64,000 nt of DNA from Streptomyces sp. NRRL F-5123 (GTDB lineage Bacteria; Actinomycetota; Actinomycetes; Streptomycetales; Streptomycetaceae). The translations under genes were made by a program, and so were the position numbers. Within the stretch, counting starts at the first letter, position 1. Every line of letters starts with the position of its first letter. Positions 20,134-54,074 of this stretch are shown here, piece after piece. Where the stretch lies: NCBI RefSeq assembly GCF_000721495.1, contig NZ_JOHY01000015.1, positions 1 to 64,000 on the forward strand, read 5' to 3'. The notes below the pieces were generated by a model. The model saw nothing but the letters and a program-made list of their open reading frames with translations. It did no database searches and was not told the DNA's origin.

Positions 20134-20160
20134 GACCGTGCGGCTACCGACCGTGTGACA
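20134..20160 (-). promoter_or_regulatory. ECF41-type promoter of the sigma gene at 20060
   Basis: -35 TGTCACA at 20154-20160, 16-bp spacer, -10 GGTC at 20134-20137, all on the minus strand, about 74 bases before the start codon. Confidence 0.72.
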
Positions 20161-20357
20161 TCGAGCTGTGCGGGTGGCGGCCGGCGGCCCGCGGAGGTCG
20201 CCGAGGCCCTGGAGAACCACTGGCGCGCGCACGCAGGGGCGTGACCGTCGCCTCCGAGGACGACGGCAACTCCCCCTGACACACGGCCTTCCGGCCCGAT
20301 CACCCGCACCGCGTCCTGCGGCGATGCGACGCGGCCGTCAGTGCTTGCCGGTCCGCC

Positions 20358-21278
20358 TCAGGCACCACCGACGGCCGCGTCGCAGGAGCGGGAATGGAGG
20401 AACGCGGCGATCTTGCTCGGGTTGAAGACCCACATCACCTGATGGATGCCGCGACAGGTGGCAGCGATGGTCATGAAGGTGGCAGGCCGGCCGTTGCGGT
20501 GGAGCAGGACCCCGCTGCGCCCGTTGGCCTCGACCGGTTCGGCCTCGACCGTCGGCCAGAACCGCGGATAGGCCGTCGACAGGTTCGCCACGCGGGCACG
20601 ACCCAGGACGGGCACCCGAGCCGCTCCCCGGATGCCGTTCCCGTCGGACAGGCTGACCACGTTCGGCGTGAGCAGCGCCTCCAGCGAGGCCACGTCCCCC
20701 TGCCGAGCAGCCGCAACGAAGGCCTGGAGCAACTTCCGGTGCTCCGCCGCGTTCACGCTGTCCCGCTGGTCGTCGCTGAGATGCTTGCGCGCCCGGCTCA
20801 CGATCTTCCTCACGTTGACCGGGCTGAGTTGCAGGATCCGCCCGATCTCGGGATAGGCGTAGTCGAAGGCCTCTCGCAGGACGTACGCGGCGCGCTCGGT
20901 CGGGGCGAGCTTCTCCAGCACCAGGAGCAGGGCCAGTTCCAGTGCTTCCGCGCGCTCGGCGCCGACCTCCGGGTCGTTGCTGGTGTCGACGGGCTCCGGG
21001 AGCCACGGACCGATGTATGTCTCGCGGCGGACGCGGGCCGACTGAGCCACGTTGATGGCCAACCGCGTGGTGGTGCTCGACAGGAACGCCACGGGGGAGT
21101 TCACGAGCGTGCGGTCGGTCCTCTGCCAGCGCAACCACGCCTCCTGGACGACGTCCTCGGCCTCCACCGCACTGCCCAGAACGCGATAGGCGATGCCGAA
21201 GAGACGTGGCCGGAGCTCCACGAAGACGGAAACGGCCTCGCTCAAGGTGCTTTCCACGGGGGGCGCCTGCAGATGCAT
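20358..21278 (-). CDS. ECF41-type sigma factor with SnoaL-like C-terminal domain
   Basis: 306 residues. Region 2 is LFGIAYRVLGSAVEAEDVVQ followed by EAWLRW (about 27-52). Region 4 is YVLREAFDYAYPEIGRILQL, then VRKIVSRARKHL (about 137-175). The SnoaL domain (about 190-295) ends in HQVMWVFNPSKIAAF, typical of ECF41. GGAGA precedes the ATG at 21278. The nearest relative in the window is the sigma at 40601-41497. A TGTTACG-N16-GGTC promoter lies 131 bases upstream. The gene diverges from a WhiB gene that also has the motif. Confidence 0.88.
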   Translation of the reverse strand: MHLQAPPVESTLSEAVSVFVELRPRLFGIAYRVLGSAVEAEDVVQEAWLRWQRTDRTLVNSPVAFLSSTTTRLAINVAQSARVRRETYIGPWLPEPVDTSNDPEVGAERAEALELALLLVLEKLAPTERAAYVLREAFDYAYPEIGRILQLSPVNVRKIVSRARKHLSDDQRDSVNAAEHRKLLQAFVAAARQGDVASLEALLTPNVVSLSDGNGIRGAARVPVLGRARVANLSTAYPRFWPTVEAEPVEANGRSGVLLHRNGRPATFMTIAATCRGIHQVMWVFNPSKIAAFLHSRSCDAAVGGA

Positions 21279-21408
21279 GCTGTGGTCTCCGTATCTCTGG
21301 TACCGGTGTCTTCGCGGAGGCGAGCACGTGGCCGTCTGCCGAGGACCGTCGGGAGGGCCCTGCATACGGAGGTCGCGGGAGAGTGCGGCTTTCGCCTCCG
21401 TTCCAAGC

Positions 21409-21435
21409 GACCGACGAGGCCGGCTCTTCGTAACA
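21409..21435 (-). promoter_or_regulatory. ECF41-type promoter of the sigma gene at 21278
   Basis: -35 TGTTACG at 21429-21435, 16-bp spacer, -10 GGTC at 21409-21412 (minus strand). It is the most divergent -35 of the set, yet spacing and -10 are exact. Suggests autoregulation. Confidence 0.6.
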
Positions 21436-21512
21436 GTTCTCGGCGGATTCTTTGCGGACTTCGGGGGCCGGGCAGCCGAGTCGGTCCCGCCGCGGACACT
21501 TCTCGGGCTCGG

Positions 21513-21539
21513 TGTCACACTCACGCCGACCGTCCGGTC
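21513..21539 (+). promoter_or_regulatory. ECF41-type promoter of the whiB-like gene
   Basis: -35 TGTCACA at 21513-21519, 16-bp spacer, -10 GGTC at 21536-21539, about 100 bases ahead of the WhiB start. Confidence 0.75.
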
Positions 21540-21636: not shown

Positions 21637-21903
21637 ATGGACTGGCGCGTACAGGGCCTGTGCCTACGTGAAGACCCTGATCTCTTCTTCCCGATAGGAA
21701 GTGTCAACAGTGCTGTGGCGCTGCTGCAGACGGAAGAGGCGAAAGCCGTCTGCCGTCGTTGCTCCGTGACGCGGCAGTGCCTGGCGTGGGCCATGGACGT
21801 GGGCCATGTCGAGGGGATCTGGGGTGGCACGACCGAAGGGGAGCGCCGGGCGATGCGGCGCCGTGCCGCGCACGAGCGGGAGGCGACGGACGCCGCCGCC
21901 TGA
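21637..21903 (+). CDS. WhiB-family iron-sulfur regulator
   Basis: 88 residues. Four Cys ligands for a [4Fe-4S] cluster at 9, 39, 42 and 48 (GLCLRED, CRRC, QCLAW), then the family turn GIWGGTTEGERRAMRRR. The ATG at 21637 is chosen because GCAGGAGG lies eight bases ahead; the GTG at 21628 would overlap that ribosome site. WhiB proteins sense redox state or NO and bind the principal sigma factor. Promoter and setting place it in the ECF41-type regulon. Confidence 0.92.
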   Translation: MDWRVQGLCLREDPDLFFPIGSVNSAVALLQTEEAKAVCRRCSVTRQCLAWAMDVGHVEGIWGGTTEGERRAMRRRAAHEREATDAAA

Positions 21904-22027: not shown

Positions 22028-23758
22028 CTATTCGACGAGCTTTCCTTCGGTGGAGACATCCGCCATGAGGGAGGCGATCCCTTCCGCAACAGGCGGAATG
22101 CTCTCGCGGGTGATTCCGGTCGTCGGGGACCAGACGAGATTGACGCGGAAGGCGGGGTCCGTGTTCGGGAAATCGCTGCGGTTGTGACAACCGCGGGTCT
22201 CCCGGCGTTCCAGCGCCGCTTCCAGGGTCGCGCGGGCCGCCAGCGCGGCCGACTTGAGGTCGAAGGCGTGGGCCAGGTCCTGGAAGCCGGCGATGTCGGG
22301 GTGGACTCCGACGTTCTCCATGCGCTTCTCGACGGCGTCCAGTTCCGCGAGCCCGGCGCGCAGACCCTGTTCGTCGCGGACGACGCCGGCGTGCTCGGTC
22401 ATGGTGTTGCGGATGGCGCGCTGAAGGGCGCGGACGTTCTCGGGTCCGTCGGCGGCGAGCAGGTCGTCGACTTCGGCGCGGGCCGCGGCCACGGCGGCCG
22501 CGGACCGGGGCTGCGCGGTCAGTGATTCCGAGTAGGCGGCCGCGGCCTGGCCGGTGATGCGGCCGTAGACGAGGAGTTCGACGAGGCTGTTGCCCCCGAG
22601 ACGGTTGGCGCCGTGCAGACCGCTGGAGGCCTCGCCGATGGCGTACAGGCCGTGGACGTCGGTGCTGTGGTCCTCGGGACGGACCCAGACGCCGCCCATC
22701 GAGTAGTGGGCCGTGGGAGCGACCTCGATGGGTTCCCGGGTGATGTCGAGCATCTGCAGCTCGAGGAGCGTCTGATAGACGCGGGGGAGCCGGTTCATGA
22801 TCGTTTGGCGGGGGAGGTGGGAGACGTCGAGCCACACCCCGCCGTTGGGGGTGCCCCGGCCTTCCTTGATCTCGGTGTACGAGGCAAGGGCCACGCGGTC
22901 GCGCGTGGACAGCTCCATGCGCTGAGGGTCGTAGCGGCTCATGTACCGCTCGCCCAGGGCGTTCCGCAGGATGCCGCCTTCGCCGCGCGCAGCCTCGCTG
23001 ACCAGGGTACCGGCGGCATTCTCCGGTTCGAGGATGCCGGAGGGGTGGAACTGGACCAGTTCGGGGTCGCGCAGGCGGGCCCCTGCTTCGACCGCCAGGC
23101 GGAAGGAGTCGCCGGTGTTCTCGTCCCGCCGCGAGGAGGTGCGGCGCCAGATGCGCGTGTGCCCGCCGGCCGCGAGGATCACGGCGTCGGCGTGGACGAG
23201 GTGACGGGCGCCGTTGGTGAGGTCGAAGCCGTAGGCTCCGAAGACGGCACCGTCATGGACCAGCAGGCGGGTGATGTACACGCTGTCGAGGATCGGTATG
23301 CCCAGCTGGCTCGCCCGCCGGACGAGGGTGCGCTGGATCTCCAGGCCGGTGTAGTCGCCGGCGAAGGCGGTGCGGCGGAAGGTGTGGGCGCCGAAGAAGC
23401 GCTGCGAGATCCGGCCGTCCTCTTCGCGGGCGAACGCCATGCCGTACCGCTCCAGGTCGTCGATGCCCAGGGCCGCGCCCTGGGTGACGATCTCGACCGT
23501 GCGGGGGTCGGCGAGCAGGTAGCTCTCCTTGAGGGTGTCGGCGGCGTGCTGCTGCCAACTGTCCTCGGGGTCCATCGTGGCCAGCGCGGCGTTGATCCCG
23601 CCGGCGGCCAGCGAGGTGTGGGTGTCCTCCTTGGGACGCTTGCCGACGGCGATCACATCGACGCCGGCCTCGGCCAGTTCGATCGCCGCCCGCAGGCCGG
23701 CCCCGCCGGTACCGATCACCAGCACCGTGGTGGAAAGTCGTCGTTCGGTGATAGGCAC
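22028..23758 (-). CDS. Orphan SdhA/FrdA/NadB-type flavoprotein
   Basis: 576 residues; GTG start behind GGGAGCAATC. Rossmann GTGGAG at 16-21. THTSLAAGGINAAL has His47 where SdhA/FrdA bind FAD covalently. Catalytic positions are intact: QFHP, the Arg in SEAARGEGG, His351 in TAHYSMGG and the Arg in HGANRLGGNSL. The C-terminal helical domain is complete. It should interconvert succinate/fumarate or oxidise a related dicarboxylate such as aspartate. No iron-sulfur or membrane anchor subunit gene is adjacent. Promoter motif at 23794-23820. A paralogue of equal length lies at 48353-50083. Confidence 0.85.
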   Translation of the reverse strand: MPITERRLSTTVLVIGTGGAGLRAAIELAEAGVDVIAVGKRPKEDTHTSLAAGGINAALATMDPEDSWQQHAADTLKESYLLADPRTVEIVTQGAALGIDDLERYGMAFAREEDGRISQRFFGAHTFRRTAFAGDYTGLEIQRTLVRRASQLGIPILDSVYITRLLVHDGAVFGAYGFDLTNGARHLVHADAVILAAGGHTRIWRRTSSRRDENTGDSFRLAVEAGARLRDPELVQFHPSGILEPENAAGTLVSEAARGEGGILRNALGERYMSRYDPQRMELSTRDRVALASYTEIKEGRGTPNGGVWLDVSHLPRQTIMNRLPRVYQTLLELQMLDITREPIEVAPTAHYSMGGVWVRPEDHSTDVHGLYAIGEASSGLHGANRLGGNSLVELLVYGRITGQAAAAYSESLTAQPRSAAAVAAARAEVDDLLAADGPENVRALQRAIRNTMTEHAGVVRDEQGLRAGLAELDAVEKRMENVGVHPDIAGFQDLAHAFDLKSAALAARATLEAALERRETRGCHNRSDFPNTDPAFRVNLVWSPTTGITRESIPPVAEGIASLMADVSTEGKLVE

Positions 23759-23793: not shown

Positions 23794-23820
23794 GACCAGG
23801 TCAGGCCGCGGTTTGTGACA
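23794..23820 (-). promoter_or_regulatory. ECF41-type promoter of the SdhA-like gene
   Basis: -35 TGTCACA at 23814-23820, 16-bp spacer, -10 GGTC at 23794-23797 (minus strand), 36 bases before the GTG start. Confidence 0.8.
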
Positions 23821-23906: not shown

Positions 23907-23933
23907 CGTCACGGATCACTCGCGCACCCGGTC
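23907..23933 (+). promoter_or_regulatory. ECF41-type promoter of the DUF5134 gene
   Basis: -35 CGTCACG at 23907-23913 (two mismatches to TGTCACA), 16-bp spacer, -10 GGTC at 23930-23933. It is divergent to the flavoprotein promoter. Confidence 0.55.
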
Positions 23934-24052: not shown

Positions 24053-24703
24053 ATGGACACCCCTGTTGACGTGGTGCGGTGGATCCTGACGACCCTGTTC
24101 GCCCTGGTGGCGCTGCACGCCCTACACGCCCCGCACGCATGGCTGCGCGGTGCCCGGGTACCGGGGACGGGGCGCCGTGACCGCGTGGACCATCTCCTGC
24201 ACGCCGCCATGGCCGTGGTCATGGCGGCGATGCCGTGGAACCTCGGCCGCTCACTGTCCGGTCCGGCCATGACGATCCTCTTCGCAGCCGCCGCTCTGTG
24301 GTTCCCGCTGACCGCTCTCCATCGCCGCAGGGCGGACACGGTGGCGGCGATCCCCGCCCGACTGCTGCCCGCGGCCGGCATGGCGGCCATGGCCTGGATG
24401 CCGAGGATGCGGCACAGCCAGGCGGTCCCCTCCCACGAGACCCTGGCCGGAAGCGTCCCGGTCTTGCACCACGGTGCGGCCATCGCCCATGTCACGGGTG
24501 GCCCGGCCACCGCCGACCTGGTCACCGGCCTGCTGGCAGTGTTCCTCCTTGCCGGCGGGCTCCGGTCGTTGAACCCGATGCCACCTCGCGTGTCCGCCGT
24601 GGACACCGCGCAGCGCGCCGCAGCGACAGACGACCGGTACGGGCACCTGCGCGACGGGGCGATGGCGCTGGGGACGGCCGTGATGCTGCTCATGCCCCAC
24701 TGA
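24053..24703 (+). CDS. DUF5134 integral membrane protein
   Basis: 216 residues with about six hydrophobic segments. His/Met-rich patches at membrane edges (ALHALHAPHAW, HLLHAAMAVVMAAMPWNL, AMAWMPRMRH) resemble the DUF5134 family of actinobacterial membrane proteins. Such His/Met spacing could bind copper or heme, but no function is established. The ribosome site is weak. It is transcribed away from the SdhA-like flavoprotein. Confidence 0.75.
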   Translation: MDTPVDVVRWILTTLFALVALHALHAPHAWLRGARVPGTGRRDRVDHLLHAAMAVVMAAMPWNLGRSLSGPAMTILFAAAALWFPLTALHRRRADTVAAIPARLLPAAGMAAMAWMPRMRHSQAVPSHETLAGSVPVLHHGAAIAHVTGGPATADLVTGLLAVFLLAGGLRSLNPMPPRVSAVDTAQRAAATDDRYGHLRDGAMALGTAVMLLMPH

Positions 24704-25070
24704 CCGCGAGTCGAGCAGCCCGGTCGAGCCGGTGGCGGAAGCCTGTCGCCGGGGCGAAGTGCCGGCGCACGGCTGCTCGTGACGAACGCGTCGGGGTCGA
24801 CGCCCTCGGACGGTCCGGCGTCCGGAACGGCGGGGGACACGTACGTCATGGGTGACTCTTTCTGTTCATCACAGGTAGACAGCGCAGGCCAGGTTCCCGT
24901 GACACCGTCCTGGCCCCGGTGCGGACGACGGCCGGCTGCCGGCCCTTGTCACAGATCCGCGGGGCGCCCGGTCAGGAGGGTTGAGCGGTCTTCACGACCG
25001 GCCACATGACCACCGTGACGGCGTACGACGCCACGCCGGCACACGGTGGCAGCACGGAAGGTACGACACA
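24704..25070. other. Spacer with one clear and one doubtful ECF41-type site
   Basis: No clear gene. A minus-strand frame from an ATG at 24849 (MTYVSPAVPDAGPSEGVDPD) begins like a protein but runs antisense into the DUF5134 gene without a stop. An imperfect motif (TGTCACG at 24898-24904, TGTC at 24878-24881) points at it. It may be the stump of a lost divergent gene. Confidence 0.35.
24947..24973 (+). promoter_or_regulatory. ECF41-type promoter of the cupin gene
   Basis: -35 TGTCACA at 24947-24953, 16-bp spacer, -10 GGTC at 24970-24973, about 100 bases ahead of the cupin start. Confidence 0.78.
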
Positions 25071-25538
25071 GTGTCGGAGAACTCACAGCACGCCCACCAC
25101 GGCCATGGAGGACACGGTCACGGTACCGCCGGCGAGGACGGGCCGAGCTGGACCCGAGCGGCGAAGATGCTCCAGGACGCCTCCCCGATCACCGTCCCTG
25201 AGGGGGCCTCGGCGATGACCATCCACGTCGAGTGGGAGCCCGGCGACCCCGGCACCCCGCCGCACCGCCACTCCGGCCCGGCGTTCGGGTACGTCATCAA
25301 GGGCGCGGTTCGCTTCGAACTCGAAGGTGAGCCCGAGCGGATCGTCGAGTCCGGCGGAACCTTCTGGGAGCCCGGCGGTGACGCCATCCACTACCAGGAC
25401 GGCAACGCCCTCTCCGACGAGAGGACCGAGTTCGTCGTCACGATGCTGTGCGCCCCCGGCAAGCCGATGCTCGAACTCGTCGGCCAGGAGGAGCTGGAGA
25501 GCCGCGCACACCTGCGCGCCCCGCGGCCCGGCGCCTGA
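25071..25538 (+). CDS. Cupin-domain protein with His-rich N-terminus
   Basis: 155 residues from the GTG at 25071, with GGAAGG about nine bases upstream. A single cupin barrel: TPPHRHSGPAFGYVIKGAVR carries the two metal His and the Glu position is shifted, ending with GGTFWEPGGDAIHYQDGN, which holds the last His. The N-terminal HAHHGHGGHGHG is a probable metal-binding tail. It probably binds a metal and a small ligand; the activity is unknown. A second cupin in the set is at 37937-38425. Confidence 0.82.
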   Translation: MSENSQHAHHGHGGHGHGTAGEDGPSWTRAAKMLQDASPITVPEGASAMTIHVEWEPGDPGTPPHRHSGPAFGYVIKGAVRFELEGEPERIVESGGTFWEPGGDAIHYQDGNALSDERTEFVVTMLCAPGKPMLELVGQEELESRAHLRAPRPGA

Positions 25539-25822: not shown

Positions 25823-26293
25823 TCAGCCGAACATGCCGGGTCGGTATCCGCCGGCGGGCTGCCGGTTGATGACGTTGATGCGGTTGTAGGCGTTGATGAC
25901 GGCGATCAGCGAGATCAGCGCGGCGAGCTGGTCCTCGTCGTAGTGCTTCGCGGCGTTCGCCCACGCCTCGTCCGACACGCCGCCCGCACCGTCGGCGATG
26001 CGCGTGCCCTGCTCCGTCAGCTCCAGCGCCGCCCGCTCGGCATCGGTGAACACCGTGGCCTCGCGCCACACGGCCACCAGGTTCAGGCGCTGCTGTTCCT
26101 CACCCTCGGCGGCCGCGTCCTTGGTGTGCATGTCGGTGCAGAAACCGCAGCCGTTGATCTGGCTGGCACGGATCTTCACCAACTCCTGGGTGGCCACCGG
26201 AAGGACTCCGCGCACCGCCGCGCCGGCCGAGTTCAGGTGCTTCATGACCTTGCCGGCAACAGCGTTGCCAAAATAGTTGATACGCGCGTCCAC
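25823..26293 (-). CDS. AhpD-family alkylhydroperoxidase-like protein (carboxymuconolactone decarboxylase fold)
   Basis: 156 residues from the GTG at 26293, chosen because AGGAG lies six bases ahead; the ATG at 26308 would put it inside the coding region. The redox centre is Cys49-Gly-Phe-Cys52 with His56 (INGCGFCTDMH), as in AhpD. WREATVFTDAERAALELTE and LISLIAVINAYNRINVIN follow. It likely reduces organic peroxides with a thiol partner. CMD-fold proteins are typical partners of ECF41 sigma factors, and the promoter at 26336-26362 fits. Confidence 0.87.
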   Translation of the reverse strand: MDARINYFGNAVAGKVMKHLNSAGAAVRGVLPVATQELVKIRASQINGCGFCTDMHTKDAAAEGEEQQRLNLVAVWREATVFTDAERAALELTEQGTRIADGAGGVSDEAWANAAKHYDEDQLAALISLIAVINAYNRINVINRQPAGGYRPGMFG

Positions 26294-26335: not shown

Positions 26336-26362
26336 GACCGGGAACCCTTGGGATGTGTGACA
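26336..26362 (-). promoter_or_regulatory. ECF41-type promoter of the AhpD gene
   Basis: -35 TGTCACA at 26356-26362, 16-bp spacer, -10 GGTC at 26336-26339 (minus strand), 43 bases before the start codon. Confidence 0.8.
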
Positions 26363-27450: not shown

Positions 27451-30222
27451 ATGGCGAGGGACGGAGCGCGGACCGAGCTCATCGGGCGGCGGGACGAGTG
27501 CCGGGTTCTCGACGACCTCCTCGCCCAGGCGAGGGCCGGGCGCAGCGGGGTTCTCGTGGTGCGCGGTGAGGCGGGCATCGGGAAGACCGAGCTGCTGAAC
27601 CATCTGCTCGTCAGGGCCACCGGATGCCGCGTCGTCAGGGCCGCCGGTGTGCAGTCCGAGATGGAGCTCTCCTACGCCGGGCTGCACCAGCTCTGCGCTC
27701 CGCTGCTGTCCCACCTCGACGATCTTCCCGCGCCGCAGCGGAACGCGCTGCGCACGGCGTTCGGCATGCAGGCCGGTGACGCGCCGGACCGGTTCCTGGT
27801 GAGCCTGGCCACCCTGAGCCTGCTCGCCGGGGCGGTCGGCGACCAGCCGTTGCTCTGCGTCGTCGACGACGCGCAGTGGCTGGACCGGGTGTCGGTCCAG
27901 ACACTCGAATTCGTCGCTCGCCGGCTGCTGGCGGAATCCGTTCTGCTCGTGCTGGCCGTCCGCGAGTCCGGCTCCCGCGAGATCCTCGCCGACCTTCCGG
28001 AGCTTGCGGTCCGTGGACTGAACGAGCGCGAATCGCGCAGGCTCCTCGACTCGGTCGTCGCCGGCCCGCTCGACCGGCGCGTACGGGACCGCATCGTCGC
28101 CGAGACGCGTGGCAATCCGCTGGCGCTGCTGGAGCTGCCGCGAGGCCTGACCGCCGTCGAGATGGCGGGCGGATTCGGCGGACCCGGGACCCGGCCGCTG
28201 TCCAGCCAGATCGAGACGGGCTTCCTCCGCCGGATCCAGTCCCTTCCGCCCGAGGCGCAGCAACTGCTGCTCATCGCCGCCATCGAGCCGATCGGTGACG
28301 TGGCCCTGCTGCGGCACGCCGCCGAGCGCATGGGGATCTCCGTGGACACCGCCGTGACCCACGCCGAGGCGTCCGGCCTGATGACGTTGGGCGCCTGGGT
28401 GCGCTTCCGTCACCCGCTGGTGCGCTCCGCGGTGTACCGCTCCGTCGACTTCGATGAACAGCGGCGCGTGCACCGAGCTCTCGCCCACTCGATCGACGCC
28501 GGCCTTCATCCCGAACGCCGCGTGTGGCACCTGGCGAGCGCGGCGGTGGGACCGGACGAGGCCGTGGCCGCCGAACTGGAGGGATCCGCCGGGCGGGCGC
28601 AGGCGCGCGGCGGGATCGCGGCGGCGGCCGCCTTCCTGCATCGAGCCACCGAACTCACTCCGGATCCCGCACGCCGCGGAGCCAGGGCCCTGGCAGCGGC
28701 GCGGGCCAAGTACCAGGCGGGCGCCTTCGACGCCGCACGGGAACTGGTCGACGCGGCGGAACTGAGCCACCTCGACGAGGTCGGCGCCGGACAGGCGATC
28801 CTGCTCCGCGGACAGATCATGTCCGCGGCCAAGAGCGCCGGCGCCGGACTGCCCCTGCTGCTCGCGGCGGCCCAGCGGCTGCAGCCGTACGACTCCGAAC
28901 TCGCCGCTCAGACCTACCGGGACGCGACCTACGCGGCCCTGACCGCGGGCCGGCTGACCACGGGCGGCGTCCGCGACGTCGCCGAGGCGGTGCTGAGCAC
29001 GCCGGGCCACGTCGACACCGCGAGCCGCGAGGGTCTCCTGCTGACCGGCATCGCGCGGGCGATCACCGAGGGGTACTCCGTGGGCGCGCCGGTCGTCCTC
29101 GAGGCCGTGGCCGCGTTCCGGACGGAAAGCCTCTCGCGGGAGGACGGCCTGGGCTGGCTCCCCCTCGTGTGCCGCATGGCCCACAGCACCTGGGACTTCG
29201 CCGCCTGGTCCGAGCTCTCGGAGCGACTGGTCGACCTCGCCCGCAGCAACGGAGCACTCGCCGTGCTGCCCTCCGCGCTCCTTCTGCGCCTGTCCAACCG
29301 GGTGTTCGCCGGCGACCTCCGCGGCGCCTCCTCCCTCGCCGTGGAGGCGAACGCGATCGGTGAAGCCACGGGCAGCAGCTTCTTCGCCCACTACGGAGCA
29401 CTCGTCGTGGAGCCCTTCAGGGGACGGGAGTCCACGACCCGCGAGGCGATCGAAACGGTCACGCAGGACCGCCGGCTGCAGGACGAGGGCAAGGTGACGA
29501 CGGCCACCCAGTGGGCGGCGGCGGTCCTCTACAACGGCCTCGGACGGTACGAGGAGGCCTACGCCTCCGCCGAACGTGGATGTGAGAATCCGCAGGAACT
29601 CGGACTGTCCCTGCAGTCCCGTGTGGAACTCGTCGAAGCGGCCGTACGGTTGGGACTCACCACGCGCGCCGCCGAGGCCGTGCGGACGATCGAGGAAATG
29701 ACCCGTGTCAGCGGAACCGCCTGGGCGCTCGGTGTCTCCGCCGCCGCCCGTGCCCTGGTGAGTGAGGGGCAGACCGCCGACGCCCTGCACCAGGAGGCCA
29801 TCGAGCGACTCGACACGGCGGACACCCGTATGGACAGCGCCAGGGCCAGGCTTCGCTACGGCGAGTGGCTCCGCCTGAAACGGCGACGGGCGGAAGCCCG
29901 GAGCCAACTGAGCGACGCATACGAGATGCTCGGCGAAGCCGGGGCCGAGGCATTCGCGGAGCGCGCGCGCCGGGAGCTGCAGGCCGCAGGGGTGAAGATG
30001 CGCAAACCCGCCTCGGCGACGCCGGTCGTCCTCACCGCGAAGGAAGTCGAGATCGCACGACTCGCCCAGGAGGGGTATACGAACCCGGAGATCGGCGCCC
30101 GGCTGTTCCTCAGCCCCCACACGGTCGAATGGCACCTGCGCAAGGTCTTCGCGAAGCTGGGGATCTCCTCCCGCAAGGAGATCGGGTCGATGCAACTCGA
30201 AGGCATGGCGATCACGTCCTGA
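27451..30222 (+). CDS. LAL-type LuxR regulator, copy 1
   Basis: 923 residues. AAA-like ATPase: Walker A GEAGIGKT at 39-46, Walker B LLCVVDDAQWLD near 130-142. A long helical TPR-like region follows, and a C-terminal LuxR helix-turn-helix at about 860-915 (LTAKEVEIARLAQEGYTNPE, LSPHTVEWHLRKVFAKLG). These large regulators integrate ATP and small-ligand or protein signals to activate pathway genes. Two further LAL genes occur at 42939-45680 and 50298-53111. Its end overlaps the convergent OsmC gene by 11 bases. Confidence 0.88.
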   Translation: MARDGARTELIGRRDECRVLDDLLAQARAGRSGVLVVRGEAGIGKTELLNHLLVRATGCRVVRAAGVQSEMELSYAGLHQLCAPLLSHLDDLPAPQRNALRTAFGMQAGDAPDRFLVSLATLSLLAGAVGDQPLLCVVDDAQWLDRVSVQTLEFVARRLLAESVLLVLAVRESGSREILADLPELAVRGLNERESRRLLDSVVAGPLDRRVRDRIVAETRGNPLALLELPRGLTAVEMAGGFGGPGTRPLSSQIETGFLRRIQSLPPEAQQLLLIAAIEPIGDVALLRHAAERMGISVDTAVTHAEASGLMTLGAWVRFRHPLVRSAVYRSVDFDEQRRVHRALAHSIDAGLHPERRVWHLASAAVGPDEAVAAELEGSAGRAQARGGIAAAAAFLHRATELTPDPARRGARALAAARAKYQAGAFDAARELVDAAELSHLDEVGAGQAILLRGQIMSAAKSAGAGLPLLLAAAQRLQPYDSELAAQTYRDATYAALTAGRLTTGGVRDVAEAVLSTPGHVDTASREGLLLTGIARAITEGYSVGAPVVLEAVAAFRTESLSREDGLGWLPLVCRMAHSTWDFAAWSELSERLVDLARSNGALAVLPSALLLRLSNRVFAGDLRGASSLAVEANAIGEATGSSFFAHYGALVVEPFRGRESTTREAIETVTQDRRLQDEGKVTTATQWAAAVLYNGLGRYEEAYASAERGCENPQELGLSLQSRVELVEAAVRLGLTTRAAEAVRTIEEMTRVSGTAWALGVSAAARALVSEGQTADALHQEAIERLDTADTRMDSARARLRYGEWLRLKRRRAEARSQLSDAYEMLGEAGAEAFAERARRELQAAGVKMRKPASATPVVLTAKEVEIARLAQEGYTNPEIGARLFLSPHTVEWHLRKVFAKLGISSRKEIGSMQLEGMAITS

Positions 30223-30679
30223 TACGCGCGGCTCCGGCGGGCCCGGTGACCGCGGGGCCGCCCTCCGACGACCAGGTGAAGGCCCCGTCCGGTTCCACCA
30301 GCAGCGCGGGAACGGTGACGACGGTGACCTCCCTGGCCAGGAGGCGGTGGACCGGACAGCGTCCCGCTGCTGCCAGCAACTGCTCCCGCTGAGTCGGCTC
30401 CAGCTCGCCGATCAGACCGACGTTCTTGACGATGGTTCCGAGGTCCCCGAACCGCACGGCCACGTCGACCCGCTCCAGTGGCCACTGGCGCCGGTCCGCC
30501 AGGGACCGAACGGCCATGGAAGTGCACGACCCGAGCGCCGCCAGCAGCAGCTCTCCCGGGGTGGGACCGGCATCGGCGCCGATGGGTACGGGTTCGTCCG
30601 CCGTCAGCCTGTGGGTGCCGATCGCGATGGCTCGGGTGAGCCCGCTGCCTTCGGCGACGGAAACGATGCGCGTGGTCAT
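30212..30679 (-). CDS. OsmC/Ohr-family peroxiredoxin-like protein
   Basis: 155 residues. The two redox Cys of the family are Cys52 in ALGSCTSMAVR and Cys108 in AAGRCPVHRLL. Glu and Arg of the active site lie in PGELLLAALG and the beta-strand VDVAVRFGD. OsmC proteins reduce organic hydroperoxides. It diverges from the NADH dehydrogenase gene, and both carry the ECF41-type motif. Confidence 0.85.
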   Translation of the reverse strand: MTTRIVSVAEGSGLTRAIAIGTHRLTADEPVPIGADAGPTPGELLLAALGSCTSMAVRSLADRRQWPLERVDVAVRFGDLGTIVKNVGLIGELEPTQREQLLAAAGRCPVHRLLAREVTVVTVPALLVEPDGAFTWSSEGGPAVTGPAGAARIRT

Positions 30680-30742: not shown

Positions 30743-30769
30743 GACCGGGCGGTGCACACGCCTGTGACA
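30743..30769 (-). promoter_or_regulatory. ECF41-type promoter of the OsmC gene
   Basis: -35 TGTCACA at 30763-30769, 16-bp spacer, -10 GGTC at 30743-30746 (minus strand), 64 bases before the start codon. Confidence 0.8.
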
Positions 30770-30944: not shown

Positions 30945-30971
30945 TGTCACAACGGTTGTTGCTGGCCGGTC
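30945..30971 (+). promoter_or_regulatory. ECF41-type promoter of the NADH dehydrogenase gene
   Basis: -35 TGTCACA at 30945-30951, 16-bp spacer, -10 GGTC at 30968-30971. Transcription would start about 28 bases before the GTG. Confidence 0.82.
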
Positions 30972-31004: not shown

Positions 31005-32354
31005 GTGCGTGAGATCCTGATAGTCGGCGGCGGTTACGCGGGCTTCTACACCGCGTGGGGCCTTGAGAAGAAGCTGCGCCGGGGCGAGGCGCGTGTCACC
31101 GTCGTCGACCCGCGCCCGTACATGACCTACCAGCCGTTCCTGCCCGAGGTGCTGGCAGGATCGGTCGAGGCCCGGCACGCCGCGGTGTCGCAGCGGCGGC
31201 ATCTGCACCGCACCCGGCTCGTCGCGGGCGCGGTGACCGAGATCCGCCACAGCGACCGCAGCGTCACCGTCCAGCCGGACAGCGGTCCGGACCTCGTGCT
31301 GCACTACGACATCCTCGTGATCACCGCCGGCGCGGTCACCCGCACCTTCCCCATCCCGGGGCTGAGCGAGGAGGCGTTCGGCCTCAAGCACGTCGAGGAG
31401 GCCGTCGCCATCCGCGACCGGCTGCTGACGTCGTTCGACCGCGCCGCGGGGCTGCCGCGGGGGCCAGAGCGGGAGAAGCTCCTCACCGTGACCTTCGTCG
31501 GCGGCGGCTTCTCCGGCGTCGAGGGGTTCGGCGAACTCCTCGCCCTCGCGACCGCGCTGGTGGGGCACTACCCGGAGATCGACGCGGACGAGCTGCGCTT
31601 CCACCTGGTCGAGGCGCGGGGGCGGATCCTGCCCGAAGTGGGTGACCGGCCCGGTGAGTGGGTCGTCCGCTCCCTGGAGAGGCGCGGTGGGGTCGTGCAC
31701 CTGAACACCCAACTGCTCTCCGCGGAGAAGGGCCACGTCGTGCTGTCGACCGGTGAGGAGTTCGACTCGGGCCTCATCGTGTGGGCCGCGGGCAATGCCT
31801 CCAACCCTGTCGTGCACAACCACACCGACCTCCCGGTCGACGAACGCGGGCTGCTCGTCGTCCGGCCGGACCTGCGCGTGGGCACCCCCACCCAGCCGGT
31901 GCCGGACGTGTGGGCCGCCGGCGACGACGCGGCCGTGCCGGACCTCGCGGCGGGCCGGCCCGGCGCGCTCACCGTGCCCAACGCGCAGCACGCGGTGCGG
32001 CAGGGCAAGCTCATGGCCAGGAACATCCGGGCCTCGCTCCGGGGCAGGCCCACGAAGAACTACGTCCACCACAGCCTGGGCGTGGTGGCCACGCTGGGCC
32101 TCGGTCGCGGCATCTTCCAGTACCACCGCCTGGTGATCAAGGGCTTCCCGGCCTGGCTCATGCACCGCGGCTACCACGTGCTCGCCATCCCGACGTGGGA
32201 ACGGAAGGCCCGGGTGTTCGCCGTGTGGTGCACCGCCGCCCTCTACGGGCGTGACATCGTCTCGCTCGCCTCGGTACAGCGGCCGCGCGAAGCCTTCGTC
32301 ACCCACGGGAAGCCCCGCCACGCAGAGCGGTCCGCGGATGCTCCCACTCCGTGA
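31005..32354 (+). CDS. ndh: Type II NADH dehydrogenase (single-subunit NADH:quinone oxidoreductase)
   Basis: 449 residues from a GTG behind AGAGGA. FAD site IVGGGYAGFYTAWGLEKK at 6-23; NADH site VTFVGGGFSGVEGFGELLAL at about 163-182; the second FAD motif is DVWAAGDDAAVPD near 304-316. YMTYQPFLPEVLAGS and the quinone/NADH region ALTVPNAQHAVRQGK are family marks. The C-terminal amphipathic part should attach it to the membrane. NDH-2 feeds electrons from NADH to menaquinone without proton pumping, fitting a redox-stress programme with the cytochrome b gene nearby. Confidence 0.88.
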   Translation: MREILIVGGGYAGFYTAWGLEKKLRRGEARVTVVDPRPYMTYQPFLPEVLAGSVEARHAAVSQRRHLHRTRLVAGAVTEIRHSDRSVTVQPDSGPDLVLHYDILVITAGAVTRTFPIPGLSEEAFGLKHVEEAVAIRDRLLTSFDRAAGLPRGPEREKLLTVTFVGGGFSGVEGFGELLALATALVGHYPEIDADELRFHLVEARGRILPEVGDRPGEWVVRSLERRGGVVHLNTQLLSAEKGHVVLSTGEEFDSGLIVWAAGNASNPVVHNHTDLPVDERGLLVVRPDLRVGTPTQPVPDVWAAGDDAAVPDLAAGRPGALTVPNAQHAVRQGKLMARNIRASLRGRPTKNYVHHSLGVVATLGLGRGIFQYHRLVIKGFPAWLMHRGYHVLAIPTWERKARVFAVWCTAALYGRDIVSLASVQRPREAFVTHGKPRHAERSADAPTP

Positions 32355-33232: not shown

Positions 33233-33259
33233 GACCAGGCAGCCGCGAAGGGCGTGACA
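33233..33259 (-). promoter_or_regulatory. ECF41-type promoter of the 54-residue protein gene
   Basis: -35 TGTCACG at 33253-33259, 16-bp spacer, -10 GGTC at 33233-33236 (minus strand), 66 bases before the ATG. It is divergent to the cytochrome b promoter. Confidence 0.75.
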
Positions 33260-41497: not shown

Positions 41498-41617
41498 GCA
41501 TGTCCTCCAGTCTCGGACCACATGCTACAAGCCGCGCCGGCGGCTCCCGGGGGACGCCGCGAGCCGGACGACCGTCCCGGAATCGATCGCCGCCGGCGTC
41601 AGGCACGCGCCCTCCAC

Positions 41618-41644
41618 GACTGCGTCGGTGTCAATGTTGTGACA
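41618..41644 (-). promoter_or_regulatory. Imperfect ECF41-type site upstream of the SigJ-like gene
   Basis: -35 TGTCACA at 41638-41644 and correct 16-bp spacing, but the -10 reads AGTC instead of GGTC. It points to the sigma gene 121 bases away. Confidence 0.35.
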
Positions 41645-41703: not shown

Positions 41704-41730
41704 TGTCACGGAACCACCGTGTGCCCGGTC
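41704..41730 (+). promoter_or_regulatory. ECF41-type promoter of the ferritin-like protein gene
   Basis: -35 TGTCACG at 41704-41710, 16-bp spacer, -10 GGTC at 41727-41730. The expected start of transcription (about 41737) lies past the GTG at 41735, so translation must begin further down, at 41816. Confidence 0.76.
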
Positions 41731-41815: not shown

Positions 41816-42886
41816 GTGAATCACCAGGAACGACTCGAAGCCGCCGAGGCACCCTCGATGGCACCGATAGCGACGCTCGAAAGCCTCCGCGAGCACCTGC
41901 AGTGGGCCTTGGAACTCGAACACGCCACCCTGCCGCCCTACCTCTGCGCGCTCTACTCGCTCGATCCGCAGCGGAACCCCGACGCCGTGGAGGCACTCGG
42001 GGGCGTCTTCGTGGAGGAGATGATCCACCTTGCCCTGGCGGCGAACCTCCTCAACGCCGTCGGCGGCCGACCGCGCCTGGACACGCCGGAGTTGCTGCAG
42101 CAGCATCCCCGCACCCTGCCCCACGGCGACCGCTCCCTGCGCCTGTCCCTCCTCCCGTTCGGCCCCGAGGCACTGGAGATGTTCCTGCGGCTGGAGCGGC
42201 CGGCCCCGCCCGCCGCACCGGCCGAGGGCGACGGCTACGAGACGATCGGCCAGTTCTACGACGCCGTAGAGGAGGGGCTGCGCCACCTGTGCACCGAACT
42301 CGGCGAGGCGGCGGTCTTCAGCGGCGACCCGGCCCGCCAGGTCTCCGGCGGTCCCTTCCGTCACACCGGCGGGCAGCTGGCTCCGGTCACCGACCTCGGC
42401 TCGGCCCTGGCGGCGCTGGAGGAGATCGTCGAACAGGGCGAGGGCACGGCGCGGGGCGAAGTGTGGGACGGCGACCGGGACATCTTCCACCCCGAGCGCG
42501 ACGAGGTCTCCCACTACTACCGGTTCCAGGAACTCAAGCTGGGCCGGCGCTACGTGCGCGGTGACACACCGCAGTCCGGCCCCACCGGGGACCCCGTCAC
42601 GCTCGACCCGGCCGGCGTCAGCCCGATGCGCCCCAACCCCCTGGTGGCCGATCACCCGGTGGGCAGCGCCATCCGGTCCGCCCAGGAGGAGTTCAACCGC
42701 ACCTACTGCGGCCTCCTCCAGGTGTTGGAGCAGGCGTTCAACGGCAGCCCGCAGAACCTCGCGGCCGCAACCGGCACGATGTACGCGCTGAAGTCGCAGG
42801 CCCAGGCCCTGATGGCCATGCCGGACGACGACGGGACGACGGCCGGCCCGACCTTCGAGTACGTCGAACCGGAGCAGCGCGGGTGA
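41816..42886 (+). CDS. Ferritin-like (VioB/iminophenyl-pyruvate-synthase-type) protein
   Basis: 356 residues from the GTG at 41816; the longer frame from 41735 would begin at or before the predicted transcript start. Ferritin-like metal ligands appear as ALELEHATLPPYLCALY (Glu, His), EEMIHLALAANLLNAVGG (Glu, His), YDAVEEGLRHL and DEVSHYYRFQEL. SAQEEFNRTYCGLLQVLEQA closes the bundle. Members of this group bind non-heme iron and act in secondary metabolism or oxygen chemistry. The gene converges on LAL copy 2. Confidence 0.8.
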   Translation: MNHQERLEAAEAPSMAPIATLESLREHLQWALELEHATLPPYLCALYSLDPQRNPDAVEALGGVFVEEMIHLALAANLLNAVGGRPRLDTPELLQQHPRTLPHGDRSLRLSLLPFGPEALEMFLRLERPAPPAAPAEGDGYETIGQFYDAVEEGLRHLCTELGEAAVFSGDPARQVSGGPFRHTGGQLAPVTDLGSALAALEEIVEQGEGTARGEVWDGDRDIFHPERDEVSHYYRFQELKLGRRYVRGDTPQSGPTGDPVTLDPAGVSPMRPNPLVADHPVGSAIRSAQEEFNRTYCGLLQVLEQAFNGSPQNLAAATGTMYALKSQAQALMAMPDDDGTTAGPTFEYVEPEQRG

Positions 42887-48352: not shown

Positions 48353-50083
48353 TCATTCCGGCCACCCGGCGTCGGCTGCGACGTCCTGCATCAACTCGGC
48401 GATGTCGGTGGGGATGGGCGGCACAGGCTCGCGGCGCACCCCGGTCACCGGGGACCACACCAGATTGACCTGCAGGTCCGGGTCGGCGTCGGGGTGGTCG
48501 GACCGGTGGTGACAGCCCCGTGTCTCCCGGCGCTCCAGCGCACACTCGAGTGTCGCGCGAGCGGCGAGAACGGTGGACCTGAGGTCGCAGGCGTACGCGA
48601 GTTCCTGGAAACCGCCGATGTCGATGTGCACTCCCGCGTACCACATTCGGCCCTCGATCTCGTCGAGCCGATCGAGTCCGGCCGTGAGCCCGGCCTCGTC
48701 CCGCACGGCACCGGCGTGCTCGGTCATCAGACGGCGCACCGACCGGAGCAGGGCGCGGACGTCCTGATCGCCGTCGCCGGCCAGCAGCCGGTTCACGTCC
48801 GCCTCCGCGGCGCGAACCGCTGCCTGCGACCGGTGCAGGGAGGTGAGCCCGGCCGAGTACTCCGCCGCGGCCCGGCCGGCGATGCGGCCGTAGACGAGCA
48901 GTTCGATCAGGGAGTTCTCCTCCAACCGGCCCGCGCCGTGCAGTCCACTGGCCGCCTCCCCGATCACGTAGAGCCCGTTGACATCGGTGCTGTGGTCCTC
49001 GGGCCGGACCCAGACCCCGCCCAGCGAGTACTGCGCGGTCGGCGCGACCTCGATCGGGTCCTGGGCGATGTCGAGCATCTGCAGTTCCCACAGGGTCTGG
49101 TGCACCCGCGGCAGTCGGGTCAGCACCGTCTCACGCGGCAGGTGGGACACGTCGAGCCACACGCCGCCGTTCTGGGTGCCGCGGCCCTCCTTGATCTCCG
49201 TGGAGGACGCCAGCGCGACGCTGTCCCGGCTACCGAGCTCCATCCGATCGGCGTCGTAGCGTGCCATGAAGCGCTCACCACGGTTGTTGAGCAGGACCCC
49301 GCCCTCGCTGCGGACCGCCTCGCTGACGAGCACGCCGGCCGCGTTCTCCGGCCCGATCAGCCCCAAAGGGTGGAACTGCACCAGCTCGGGGTTCCGCAGC
49401 CGGGCACCGGCCTCGACGGCGAGGCGGAAGGCGTCACCGGTGTTCTCGTGGCGCCCCGAGGACGTGCGCTGCCAGATGCGCGTGTGCCCGCCGGTCGCGA
49501 GGATCACCGAGTCGGCGTGCACCACGTAGTGGGACCCGTCGACGAGGTCGAATCCGTAGGCGCCGAACACGGTCCGGTCGTCGACCAGCAGCTGGGTGAC
49601 GTACACGCTGGACAGGACGGGAATCGCGAGTTGCCGCGCACGTTCGCGGAGGGCTCGGTGCACCTCCACGCCGGTGTATTCGCCGTCGAACGCGCCGAGT
49701 CGGTACGTGAGGTCGGCCGACCGGTGCCGGACGGACCCGCCGTGACCCTGGTGGTCGAGGCCCGTGCTGTGGCGCCCCACGTCGTGGAAGCCGTGCCCCG
49801 CGTACTGGGCCACGACCTGCGCGGTGCGCGGGTCGGCCAGCAGGCTTCCCTCGCGCAGCGTGTCGGCCGCATGCCGTTCCCACGTGTCCCCCCGGCTGCT
49901 GGTGGCGGGCGCACGCCCGAACCCTCCTCGCGCCGTGATCGTGCGCAGGTTCCCCGCCGTGCGCTTGACCACCGCGAGGACCGCGACACCGGCCTCGGCG
50001 ACTTCGATGGCCGCCCGGAGGCCTTCCCTACCAGCCCCCACCACGAGTACGGACGTGGCGAGTTGGTGTCCGAGCGAAGACAA
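48353..50083 (-). CDS. SdhA/NadB-like flavoprotein paralogue with altered active site
   Basis: 576 residues, exactly the length of the paralogue at 22028-23758. The start is a TTG at 50083 five bases after AGGAGG, giving MSSLGHQLATSVLVVGAGRE. The sequence aligns without gaps at the sites checked. His47 (FAD-linking position) is Arg (LRTITARGG), catalytic His351 is Gln (TAQYSLGG), and RLGGNSL has become RLEENSL. QFHP and the Arg in SEAVRSEGG remain. It has probably lost or changed fumarate/succinate chemistry. Its own ECF41-type promoter is perfect, so expression seems to be maintained. Confidence 0.82.
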   Translation of the reverse strand: MSSLGHQLATSVLVVGAGREGLRAAIEVAEAGVAVLAVVKRTAGNLRTITARGGFGRAPATSSRGDTWERHAADTLREGSLLADPRTAQVVAQYAGHGFHDVGRHSTGLDHQGHGGSVRHRSADLTYRLGAFDGEYTGVEVHRALRERARQLAIPVLSSVYVTQLLVDDRTVFGAYGFDLVDGSHYVVHADSVILATGGHTRIWQRTSSGRHENTGDAFRLAVEAGARLRNPELVQFHPLGLIGPENAAGVLVSEAVRSEGGVLLNNRGERFMARYDADRMELGSRDSVALASSTEIKEGRGTQNGGVWLDVSHLPRETVLTRLPRVHQTLWELQMLDIAQDPIEVAPTAQYSLGGVWVRPEDHSTDVNGLYVIGEAASGLHGAGRLEENSLIELLVYGRIAGRAAAEYSAGLTSLHRSQAAVRAAEADVNRLLAGDGDQDVRALLRSVRRLMTEHAGAVRDEAGLTAGLDRLDEIEGRMWYAGVHIDIGGFQELAYACDLRSTVLAARATLECALERRETRGCHHRSDHPDADPDLQVNLVWSPVTGVRREPVPPIPTDIAELMQDVAADAGWPE

Positions 50084-50126: not shown

Positions 50127-50153
50127 GACCGGACAGGGGGCTCGTTTGTGACA
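50127..50153 (-). promoter_or_regulatory. ECF41-type promoter of the flavoprotein paralogue
   Basis: -35 TGTCACA at 50147-50153, 16-bp spacer, -10 GGTC at 50127-50130 (minus strand), 44 bases before the TTG start. Confidence 0.8.
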
Positions 50154-53111: not shown

Positions 53112-53129
53112 GGGCCGTCGCGGGACCAC

Positions 53130-53145
53130 GGACCCCCGGGGGTCC
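53130..53145 (+). terminator. Palindrome after LAL copy 3
   Basis: GGACCCCCGGGGGTCC, a 16-base perfect palindrome 18 bases after the stop codon. It could act as a terminator hairpin with a minimal loop. Confidence 0.4.
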
Positions 53146-53249
53146 CCACGGACTCGACCACGGACATCAAGGGCGCGGCGAGCGGTGGCGCGGACGGAGG
53201 GTGGAACCGTCGCCCCTCATGGGGCGCCCGTCCACGAAGAGGAGTCCCG

Positions 53250-53975
53250 ATGTCCGCGCCCAGCCTCACGACGACGCCTGCCGCACCCCCGTTCGCCCGG
53301 CCGGACGAGGACGACCTGCACCTCGCTCTCGACATCTTCCTGGCCCAGCGGACACGACTGTTCCGCATCGCCTACCGGATTCTGGGCGACGCCCCCGGAG
53401 CCGAGGACGTGATGCAGGAGGTGTGGCTGCGCTGGCAGCTCACCGACCGCGCGACGATCAAGAATCCGGCCGCGTTCCTGACCACGGCCACGACCCGTCT
53501 GGCGATCAACGTCGTCCAGTCGGGGCGGCACCGCCACGAAACGCCGGCCGACCCGCAGGCGGCCGACCTCGGAGACCCGTCCACCCAGGATCCCGTGCTG
53601 GACGTGGAGCGGGCCGCAGCGGTCGACTCGGCCCTGGCCCTGCTCATGGCGCGGCTGACGCCGGATCGCCTGGCCGCCTACGTGCTGCGCAAAGGCTTCG
53701 ACTACACCTATGCGGATCTCGCGGAGTTGCTCCGGATCAGCGCCCCGCACGCGCGGGTGGTGGTACACCGCGCGCAGGCACGCCTCGACTGCGACCGCGA
53801 ACGGCCGGTCACCGCTGAGGCGCACCGTCGCCTCGCCACCGCTTTCAGGACCGCGGCCAGCACCGGGGACCTGGACGGCCTCGTGCGACTTCTCGTCTCC
53901 GAGGGCCGTATGCACCGCCTGCGGTCCCACCGGTCATCTGCCCCCGCTCACCTGCCCGCACAGCACGCGGCGTGA
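53250..53975 (+). CDS. ECF41-like sigma factor with truncated SnoaL tail
   Basis: 241 residues behind AAGAGGAG. Region 2 is LFRIAYRILGDAPGAEDVMQ plus EVWLRW; region 4 is YVLRKGFDYTYADLAELLRI plus ARVVVHRAQARLD. A SnoaL domain begins (TAEAHRRLATAFRTAASTGD, LDGLVRLLVSEG) but breaks off. The rest (MHRLRSHRSSAPAHLPAQHA) is unrelated, about 60-70 residues shorter than its sisters. Because the tail both restrains and supports ECF41 activity, this protein may be constitutive or inactive. No ECF41-type site precedes it. Confidence 0.8.
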   Translation: MSAPSLTTTPAAPPFARPDEDDLHLALDIFLAQRTRLFRIAYRILGDAPGAEDVMQEVWLRWQLTDRATIKNPAAFLTTATTRLAINVVQSGRHRHETPADPQAADLGDPSTQDPVLDVERAAAVDSALALLMARLTPDRLAAYVLRKGFDYTYADLAELLRISAPHARVVVHRAQARLDCDRERPVTAEAHRRLATAFRTAASTGDLDGLVRLLVSEGRMHRLRSHRSSAPAHLPAQHAA

Positions 53976-54047
53976 GAGCAGGCGACGAGTCGGGCCACCC
54001 TCGTGGCGTTGCCGGACATTCGTGGGCGGAAAGCCTGTCACCGCCGG

Positions 54048-54074
54048 TGTCACAGATCGGGTACCTGTTCGGTC
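54048..54074 (+). promoter_or_regulatory. ECF41-type promoter of the VOC (and DyP) genes
   Basis: -35 TGTCACA at 54048-54054, 16-bp spacer, -10 GGTC at 54071-54074, 105 bases before the ATG of the VOC gene. Confidence 0.78.

Follow-up and report, generated by a model that had tools for sequence, protein, structure and literature searches.

An ECF41-type sigma factor subclade, a predicted cluster of GGTC-type promoters and a possible sigma-derived anti-sigma factor in Streptomyces sp. NRRL F-5123

The closest described systems are those of Ecf41Bli and Ecf41Rsp, sigma factors of the extracytoplasmic function (ECF) family ECF41. They combine sigma2 and sigma4 with a C-terminal extension and a WLPEP linker, neighbor carboxymuconolactone decarboxylase-, oxidoreductase- and epimerase-type genes, and read promoters with a -35 element TGTCACA, a 16-bp spacer and a -10 element CGTC; TGTT is also given for Ecf41Bli, so the -10 element of the family is not uniform (PMC3426412). 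Shortened to residue 204 or 206, they were about 20- and 120-fold more active; deleting the entire C-terminal extension abolished activity, and ECF41 factors are said to control generally one target (PMC3426412). Since a review cites the ECF41 factor RpoE10 as tied to motility, the one-target rule may not be absolute (PMC8999054). Here we analyze a window of 64,000 nt from Streptomyces sp. NRRL F-5123 (contig NZ_JOHY01000015.1, positions 1 to 64,000), in which 20 sites resembling ECF41 promoters lie within a 34-kb cluster that encodes four ECF41-family genes: SigA and SigC are full-length, SigD lacks the SnoaL-type domain and SigB has a degenerate sigma part.

The cluster shares with Ecf41Bli and Ecf41Rsp the sigma2-sigma4 and C-terminal extension architecture, the WLPEP linker, the TGTCACA -35 element with its 16-bp spacer and the type of neighborhood, with site-bearing genes of the AhpD/carboxymuconolactone decarboxylase family, NmrA-like genes and oxidoreductase genes. 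Unlike these systems, it has GGTC instead of CGTC in all 20 sites, a change in the first base that the first-pass annotation had already called a variant -10 element. It also has about twenty clustered sites (19 genes with their own site, all targets if the sites are used) as opposed to essentially one target, and several sigma copies including SnoaL-less and sigma-poor members. With essentially a single target reported for the published ECF41 factors (PMC3426412), we regard the locus as an expanded ECF41 variant with a changed -10 element. It is very likely that the 20 sites are promoters read by the ECF41 subclade of the cluster (SigC and SigA), and the 19 mostly redox-related genes behind them are predicted to be co-activated.

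Other systems show partial likeness. In Streptomyces tsukubaensis, the SnoaL-bearing ECF56 factor SigG1 also has an adjacent partner gene, whose product RsfG acts as an anti-sigma factor, and its targets include a WhiB-like gene, as do the cluster sites; SigG1 differs in lacking NPDKL, and RsfG is not described as sigma-derived in the portion of the text consulted (PMC7730460). The same paper also links the SnoaL-domain motif NPDKL to YVGPWLPEP in the linker (PMC7730460). The co-expression groups of S. coelicolor SigJ (SCO1276) and SCO3450 likewise tie a sigma factor to genes of one region (SCO1265-SCO1288 and SCO3437-SCO3465; PMC11538686), but SCO3450, unlike the cluster sigma factors, is described as resembling SigR (PMC4367926). 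A supposed identity of S. coelicolor SCO7104-SCO7112 with the cluster led nowhere. Among the papers listed in searches of the open-licence literature on ECF41, SnoaL and Streptomyces sigma factors, titles and abstract beginnings contained no description of a GGTC regulon or of a sigma-derived SnoaL anti-sigma factor, and an earlier notice is possible.

Scanning both strands of the window for YGTYAC-N17-GGTC returned exactly 20 matches, whereas 100 dinucleotide-shuffled windows gave a mean of 1.14 and a maximum of 4, and none of the 20 lies within a called gene. The first-pass annotation, which had placed 20 sites with a 16-bp spacer at the same coordinates and strands, was thus borne out. The base preceding GGTC is C in 16 sites and T in 4, again as it had described, and 19 sites precede a plausible start codon by 33-130 nt (for SigA, the start was taken 130 nt past the site; an alternative start at 43 nt is possible), while 37195 (-) faces only a gene remnant. 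The five divergent intergenic regions that it listed as carrying paired sites are present, but there are six, the additional one being 21409 (-)/21513 (+), and the gene behind the 21513 site had to be corrected to a complete WhiB-family gene. A weight matrix built from the 20 sites scored them at 16.0-23.8; the next-best place in the window (12.6) is TGTCACA-N16-AGTC in front of SigC. Across the 8.8-Mb genome, all 14 matches to strict TGTCACA-N16-GGTC fall in the 34-kb cluster. When the spacer was freed to 10-22, there were 29 strict matches, of which the 15 with other spacers are scattered (one in the window at 56628), with no pile-up at spacings other than N16. The loose pattern matched 82 times, compared with 30 for a reversed control, and therefore constitutes weak evidence outside the cluster.

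The same element recurs in 80 named loci (1.56 Mb, mostly Streptomyces), which hold the best 80 of 580 listed relatives of the fumarate-reductase-like flavoprotein. With k varied from 8 to 25, TGTCAC[AG]-N(k)-GGTC yielded 373 sites at N16 versus 0-12 at each other spacing. Among 451 N16 sites, the first -10 base was G in 373, T in 62, A in 11 and C in 5, C being the rarest; conservation of the motif columns follows by construction from the pattern and was not counted. The 62 TGTC sites, 16 of them ahead of NmrA-like genes, suggest that T is tolerated as the first -10 base. A site precedes the flavoprotein gene in 56 of the 68 loci outside Microbacteriaceae and in none of the 12 Microbacteriaceae loci, and 55 of 58 sites ahead of flavoprotein genes end 32-37 nt short of the start. 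Of 371 sites in the named loci, 256 lead into relatives of window genes, namely of flavoprotein (58), NmrA-like (33), SigB (24), cupin (21), AhpD-type (19), ferredoxin (17), WhiB (16) and SigA (15) genes among others. The other 115 have a candidate open reading frame (ORF) in 107 cases, including NADH-dehydrogenase-like (15), small coiled-coil-like (15), OsmC-type (14) and hydrolase-like ones. Relatives of the site-less window genes, SigC apart, had no GGTC site, though for several genes relatives were few (in 2-28 loci each); the TGTC form stands before one relative of the second hydrolase. The motif is conserved in many Streptomyces and in some other genera.

The ECF41 assignment made in the first-pass annotation holds at the sequence level, with four ECF41-family genes instead of one. 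SigC (341.8 bits) and SigA (325.7 bits) exceed the cut-off of TIGR02957 (SigX4; 323.25 bits) and align up to positions 278-279 of its 281, covering the C-terminal SnoaL-type extension, although Pfam SnoaL_2 itself stays under its cut-off in both. SigD (158.7 bits) and SigB (partial) score below. The extension is present in SigA and SigC and absent from SigD; the WLPEP motif is present in SigA and SigC and absent from SigB and SigD. The genome has three copies of canonical TGTCACA-N16-CGTC, two of which adjoin other ECF41 paralogues, and each of 35 genomes of the genus has 0-6.

A FastTree tree of 132 sigma cores (from 143 proteins after dropping duplicates and cores <140 residues) placed SigA- and SigC-type proteins and their SnoaL-less relatives in one group of 101 tips (local support 0.94), separate from ECF41 factors that adjoin a canonical CGTC promoter. 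Presence of this subclade follows the sites. A SigC relative of at least 67% identity occurs in 9 of the 35 genus genomes, including all 7 with at least five strict sites; in the other 26, the best relative has at most 50% identity and there are 0-2 sites. In the family sample (200 genomes, the 35 genus genomes included), at least five sites were found in 13, all of which carry the subclade. Outside the genus, sigma factors were searched in 60 of 165 genomes (six with at least five sites, ten that have three or four and, picked by number, 44 more), and the subclade was present in 6 of 6 with at least five sites versus 6 of 54 with fewer. These patterns make SigC and SigA the probable readers of the sites.

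A candidate determinant of the changed -10 preference lies in region 2.4, by our reading of SigC. Position 85 is Q in 73 of 80 full-length subclade proteins and R in all 10 ECF41 factors beside a CGTC site, and at position 84 A is found in 71 of the 80 versus L in all 10. We predict that these positions set the -10 preference; against this, there are further differing positions, and L088 carries R at 85 although it has ten sites.

SigB-type proteins form a class in which the motifs are split. Class counts were made on distinct proteins, with duplicates from overlapping stretches merged, and omit partial sigma ORFs (10 and a further 5). Among 49 distinct SigB-type ORFs (four partial), none has a WLPEP-type motif, 48 have NP[DE]KL (the exception is cut by the locus end) and 46 have D[GS]GGK. 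Conversely, all 23 full SigA proteins have WLPEP, 11 have NPxK and none has NP[DE]KL, while the 57 SigC proteins have WLPEP in 56 (counting WLPDP and WIPEP) and NPxK in 52. A SigB gene lies within 1.5 kb of 30 of 32 SigA genes (22 of 23 full, 8 of 9 SnoaL-less), as opposed to 2 of 57 SigC genes and 1 of 12 other SnoaL-less genes, and the SigA-SigB adjacency is kept in two orientations. An own site precedes 21 of 33 SigA-class, 27 of 46 SigB and 5 of 56 distinct SigC genes and none of 8 other SnoaL-less genes. SigC as a target of its own GGTC promoter is accordingly not a rule, and in the window it has only the weaker AGTC variant.

In an alignment of 33 SigB sequences, the sigma2 DNA-reading stretch is replaced and sigma4 is gone in several, whereas the SnoaL motifs are nearly invariant; window SigB has lost most of sigma4 as well. 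The nearest solved structure by sequence to both SigC (3e-41) and SigB (6.5e-12) is M. tuberculosis SigJ (PDB 5xe7), from which SigB differs in lacking the DNA-reading sequence of sigma2, the WLPEP linker and, in the window, most of sigma4. SigJ 5xe7 and SigG1 7qh5 are also the best fold matches of an AlphaFold model of window SigB (mean predicted local distance difference test score, pLDDT, 83.6), and the poor overall superposition (template modeling score, TM, 0.36) was taken to reflect different domain placement in the model. Further reduction is seen in S. adustus (L108; 212 residues, no sigma2), in G197 (241 residues, sigma4 deleted) and in Streptomyces spinosisporus 7R016 (L073; same ORF in G110), where SigB is a SnoaL domain of 138 residues with DGGGR and NPDKL. 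A frame error may account for this short form, but its start lies 31 nt behind a site. In two Catenulispora metagenome-assembled genomes (L117 and L125), an ORF that matches only the SnoaL part of SigB and has NPxKL directly adjoins a full subclade sigma gene; L125 has sites and L117 has none. SigB, for which adjacency, motif split and domain loss are observed, is predicted to be a trans-acting brake (anti-sigma factor) on the cluster sigma factors.

Loss of the SnoaL domain has also occurred in the sigma factors themselves. The loci and the window contain 22 SnoaL-less sigma ORFs (21 distinct), and no convincing SnoaL sequence was found behind 20 of the 21, with L065 ending with the ORF and L064 and L128 seen in part. 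Their match to SigA or SigC stops at residues 197-220 in 16 of 19, at 169 in L189 and at 238 in L187 and L188; for SigD and its relative in L088, SigD itself served as the reference. These end points appear to lie near the residue numbers of the published hyperactive truncations, as far as numbers can be compared between unaligned proteins. On the tree, parsimony required six changes, and at least five origins remained when weak nodes were collapsed. SnoaL-less SigA-class proteins retain WLPEP in 10 of 11, and their median ratio of nonsynonymous to synonymous substitution rates (dN/dS) is 0.17, compared with 0.19 for full-length SigA (pairs not independent). SnoaL-less SigA is under the same constraint as the full-length protein.

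Based on these observations we propose the following mechanism. SigC and SigA would direct RNA polymerase to the GGTC sites, and the transcription start points implied by the sites are predictions. SigC, which seldom has its own site, would be the input. SigA, often with a site, would amplify its own regulon as the presumed positive feedback arm, and SigB, also often with a site, would damp it through its SnoaL domain in trans as the negative arm. SigD would be a brake-free form, and GGTC in place of CGTC would keep the regulon apart from ordinary ECF41 promoters of the same cell. From the redox gene content we infer, as a suggestion, an oxidative or quinone/thiol signal, and any physiological role would be equally presumptive. 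In evolutionary terms, the built-in ECF41 brake may have become a separate anti-sigma factor of sigma descent: SigB kept the DGGGK/NPDKL "key" of SnoaL and lost the WLPEP "lock" and the DNA-reading parts, down to the 138-residue SnoaL protein; SigA kept the lock, its own key having degenerated or been cut off several times; and the regulon expanded from a single target to some twenty clustered promoters with a switched -10 element, a change in region 2.4 insulating it from ordinary ECF41 promoters. We advance this scenario tentatively, its chances being a little below even.

The alternative that survives best accepts the regulon and takes SigB as a decaying sigma duplicate without a regulatory role and the SnoaL-less sigma factors as chance losses. 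SigB evolves faster than the full sigma factors (median dN/dS 0.48 versus 0.19-0.20, with 0.46 for ten other SnoaL-less genes; pairs not independent), its sigma parts were lost stepwise, and its adjacency to SigA could stem from tandem duplication. L092 is a counter-case, with a frame-broken SigB and an in-frame stop in SigA that leaves the SnoaL part downstream of it. The distribution also speaks for decay. In 61 genomes, a SigB-type match of at least 400 bits was found in 9 and a weaker one near a sigma gene in G000, G064, G110, G128 and G197, all within the 21 sigma-subclade genomes; the other 7 of these 21, including the site-rich G005 and G017, show none, and SigB as an obligate part of the system was rejected. 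The matches listed for the 40 genomes without the subclade include no SigB-like one, a 259-bit match in G007 being left aside. Strict SigA-SigB pairing was rejected as well: G110 has SigB, but its sole close sigma match is SigC, and SigB may therefore act on SigC too. On the other side, DGGGK and NPDKL are almost unchanged even as the sigma parts degenerate, the median dN/dS of SigB is below 1, more than half of SigB genes have their own site, the adjacency survives in two orientations, the shortest SigB keeps both site and SnoaL domain, and SnoaL-less SigA is as constrained as its full-length counterpart. We consider decay rather doubtful but a serious competitor to the brake proposed for SigB.

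A second alternative is that an unrelated sigma factor encoded elsewhere reads the sites, with the ECF41 genes as bystanders. Sigma genes are numerous in the genome (TIGR02957 has 42 matches at E 0.001, some being pieces of one gene, with five above the cut-off including SigA and SigC), but the -35 element is of the ECF41 type, the sites precede sigma genes themselves and all 13 genomes found with at least five sites carry the subclade, which makes this explanation very improbable. Hardly any probability, slightly less still, remains for the sites being operators of a LuxR-type, MmyB-type or WhiB regulator. The cluster does encode three large LuxR-type regulators, an MmyB-type regulator and a WhiB protein, but the element is asymmetric, is aimed at the gene, has a single fixed spacing and contains the ECF41 -35 (PMC3426412), and relatives of the LuxR- and MmyB-type proteins occur in only 3-11 of 100 loci and stretches and those of WhiB in 23, whereas the sigma subclade tracks the sites. 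Chance or base composition is rejected by the shuffles, the clustering of strict sites and the N16 peak in the 80 loci.

Several observations weigh against a regulon read by SigC and SigA. The 80 loci are not independent: their selection rested on resemblance to a single cluster gene, most are from Streptomyces, and there is some overlap with the G-numbered genomes. Three of the 68 loci outside Microbacteriaceae (L117, L123 and L130) have no site at all, L117 despite a sigma factor of 55% identity, and the sigma factor coexists with few strict sites in G001 (1), G032 (1), G046 (0) and G065 (1). L167, a sister outside the subclade, is also near a GGTC site. As the 25 and 24 strict sites of G008 and G025 are in many cases spread genome-wide, clustering is not a rule, and the regulon looks dispersed in some species. 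Finally, 9 of the 28 called genes from 19266 to 54635 have no site of their own: those for DUF427, the three LuxR-type regulators, the second hydrolase (separated from the first by 25 nt), SigC, an aldehyde dehydrogenase, the MmyB-type regulator and SigD. The original proposal of one regulon over some 34 kb of redox genes is supported, with the refinement that about a third of the called genes lacks a site.

The site-bearing genes are mostly redox-related and include two sigma-type genes (SigA and SigB) and two small ORFs (Table 1). WhiB proteins generally carry iron-sulfur clusters, and the WhiB gene would fit a redox regulon. The site-less LuxR-type ATPase regulators lie at 27451-30222, 42939-45710 and 50298-53111, with relatives in 11, 3 and 5 of the 100 loci and stretches, and a large ORF with Kelch and carboxypeptidase-regulatory-like repeats adjoins the cluster (59139-63308). 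In the Microbacteriaceae loci L124, L127, L129, L131-L136 and L138-L140, the flavoprotein is 84-85% identical and the locus has no GGTC site; the gene therefore predates or escaped the regulon. A plasmid search found flavoprotein relatives in 13 records. On Pseudarthrobacter chlorophenolicus plasmid pACHL02 (L191), the relative lies among maleylacetate reductase, intradiol dioxygenase, NmrA-like and cupin genes, which hints at aromatic or quinone metabolism or aromatic catabolism.

Table 1. Predicted promoter sites (27 nt each) and genes of the cluster, in window coordinates.
Feature	Position	Strand	Basis
Site before SigB gene	20134..20160	-	pattern scan
Site TGTTACG-N16-GGTC before SigA gene	21409..21435	-	pattern scan
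Site before WhiB-family gene	21513..21539	+	pattern scan
Site before fumarate-reductase-like flavoprotein gene	23794..23820	-	identical 27-mer in relative G005
Site before DUF5134 gene	23907..23933	+	pattern scan
Site before cupin gene	24947..24973	+	pattern scan
Site before AhpD/carboxymuconolactone decarboxylase-family gene	26336..26362	-	pattern scan
Site before OsmC gene	30743..30769	-	pattern scan
Site before NADH dehydrogenase-like gene	30945..30971	+	pattern scan
Site before 54-residue ORF, coiled-coil-looking	33233..33259	-	pattern scan
Site before QcrB-like cytochrome b gene	33339..33365	+	pattern scan
Site before alpha/beta hydrolase gene	34981..35007	+	pattern scan
Site facing gene remnant	37195..37221	-	pattern scan
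Site before ferredoxin gene	37235..37261	+	pattern scan
Site before second cupin gene	38544..38570	-	pattern scan
Site before small ORF with hydrophobic C-terminus	38632..38658	+	pattern scan
Site before NmrA-like gene	40469..40495	-	pattern scan
Weaker variant TGTCACA-N16-AGTC before SigC gene, 21st candidate	41618..41644	-	weight-matrix scan
Site before ferritin-like gene	41704..41730	+	pattern scan
Site before second fumarate-reductase-like flavoprotein gene	50127..50153	-	pattern scan
Site before glyoxalase-family gene	54048..54074	+	pattern scan
SigB, ECF41 relative: degenerate sigma2/sigma4, no WLPEP, SnoaL-type domain with DGGGK and NPDKL	19266..20060	-	
SigA, full-length ECF41 sigma factor, 306 residues	20358..21278	-	
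WhiB-family protein, complete gene	21637..21903	+	
Fumarate-reductase/succinate-dehydrogenase-like flavoprotein	22028..23758	-	
DUF5134 protein	24053..24703	+	
Cupin	25071..25538	+	
AhpD/carboxymuconolactone decarboxylase-family protein	25823..26293	-	
OsmC-like protein	30212..30679	-	
NADH dehydrogenase-like flavoprotein	31005..32354	+	
QcrB-like cytochrome b	33414..34895	+	
Alpha/beta hydrolase; second hydrolase next at 36037	35055..36011	+	
Ferredoxin	37331..37519	+	
Second cupin	37937..38425	-	
NmrA-like NAD(P)-binding protein	39677..40423	-	
SigC, full-length ECF41 sigma factor, exceeds TIGR02957 cut-off	40601..41521	-	
Ferritin-like protein	41816..42886	+	
Second fumarate-reductase-like flavoprotein	48353..50083	-	
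SigD, ECF41-type sigma2-sigma4, no SnoaL, no WLPEP	53250..53975	+	
Glyoxalase-family protein	54180..54635	+	

Here an entire redox cluster seems to be under the control of one ECF41 subclade through a new -10 element, where essentially one gene per fused-domain factor has been reported. Natural losses of the SnoaL domain appear to repeat the kind of truncation that was hyperactivating in the laboratory, and a partner protein of the SnoaL type seems to have spread in parallel. If the proposed role of SigB is true, the cluster would be a case of an anti-sigma factor arising from a sigma factor and a natural test of control in cis versus in trans, and its promoter/sigma pair would likely be orthogonal to ordinary ECF41 systems.

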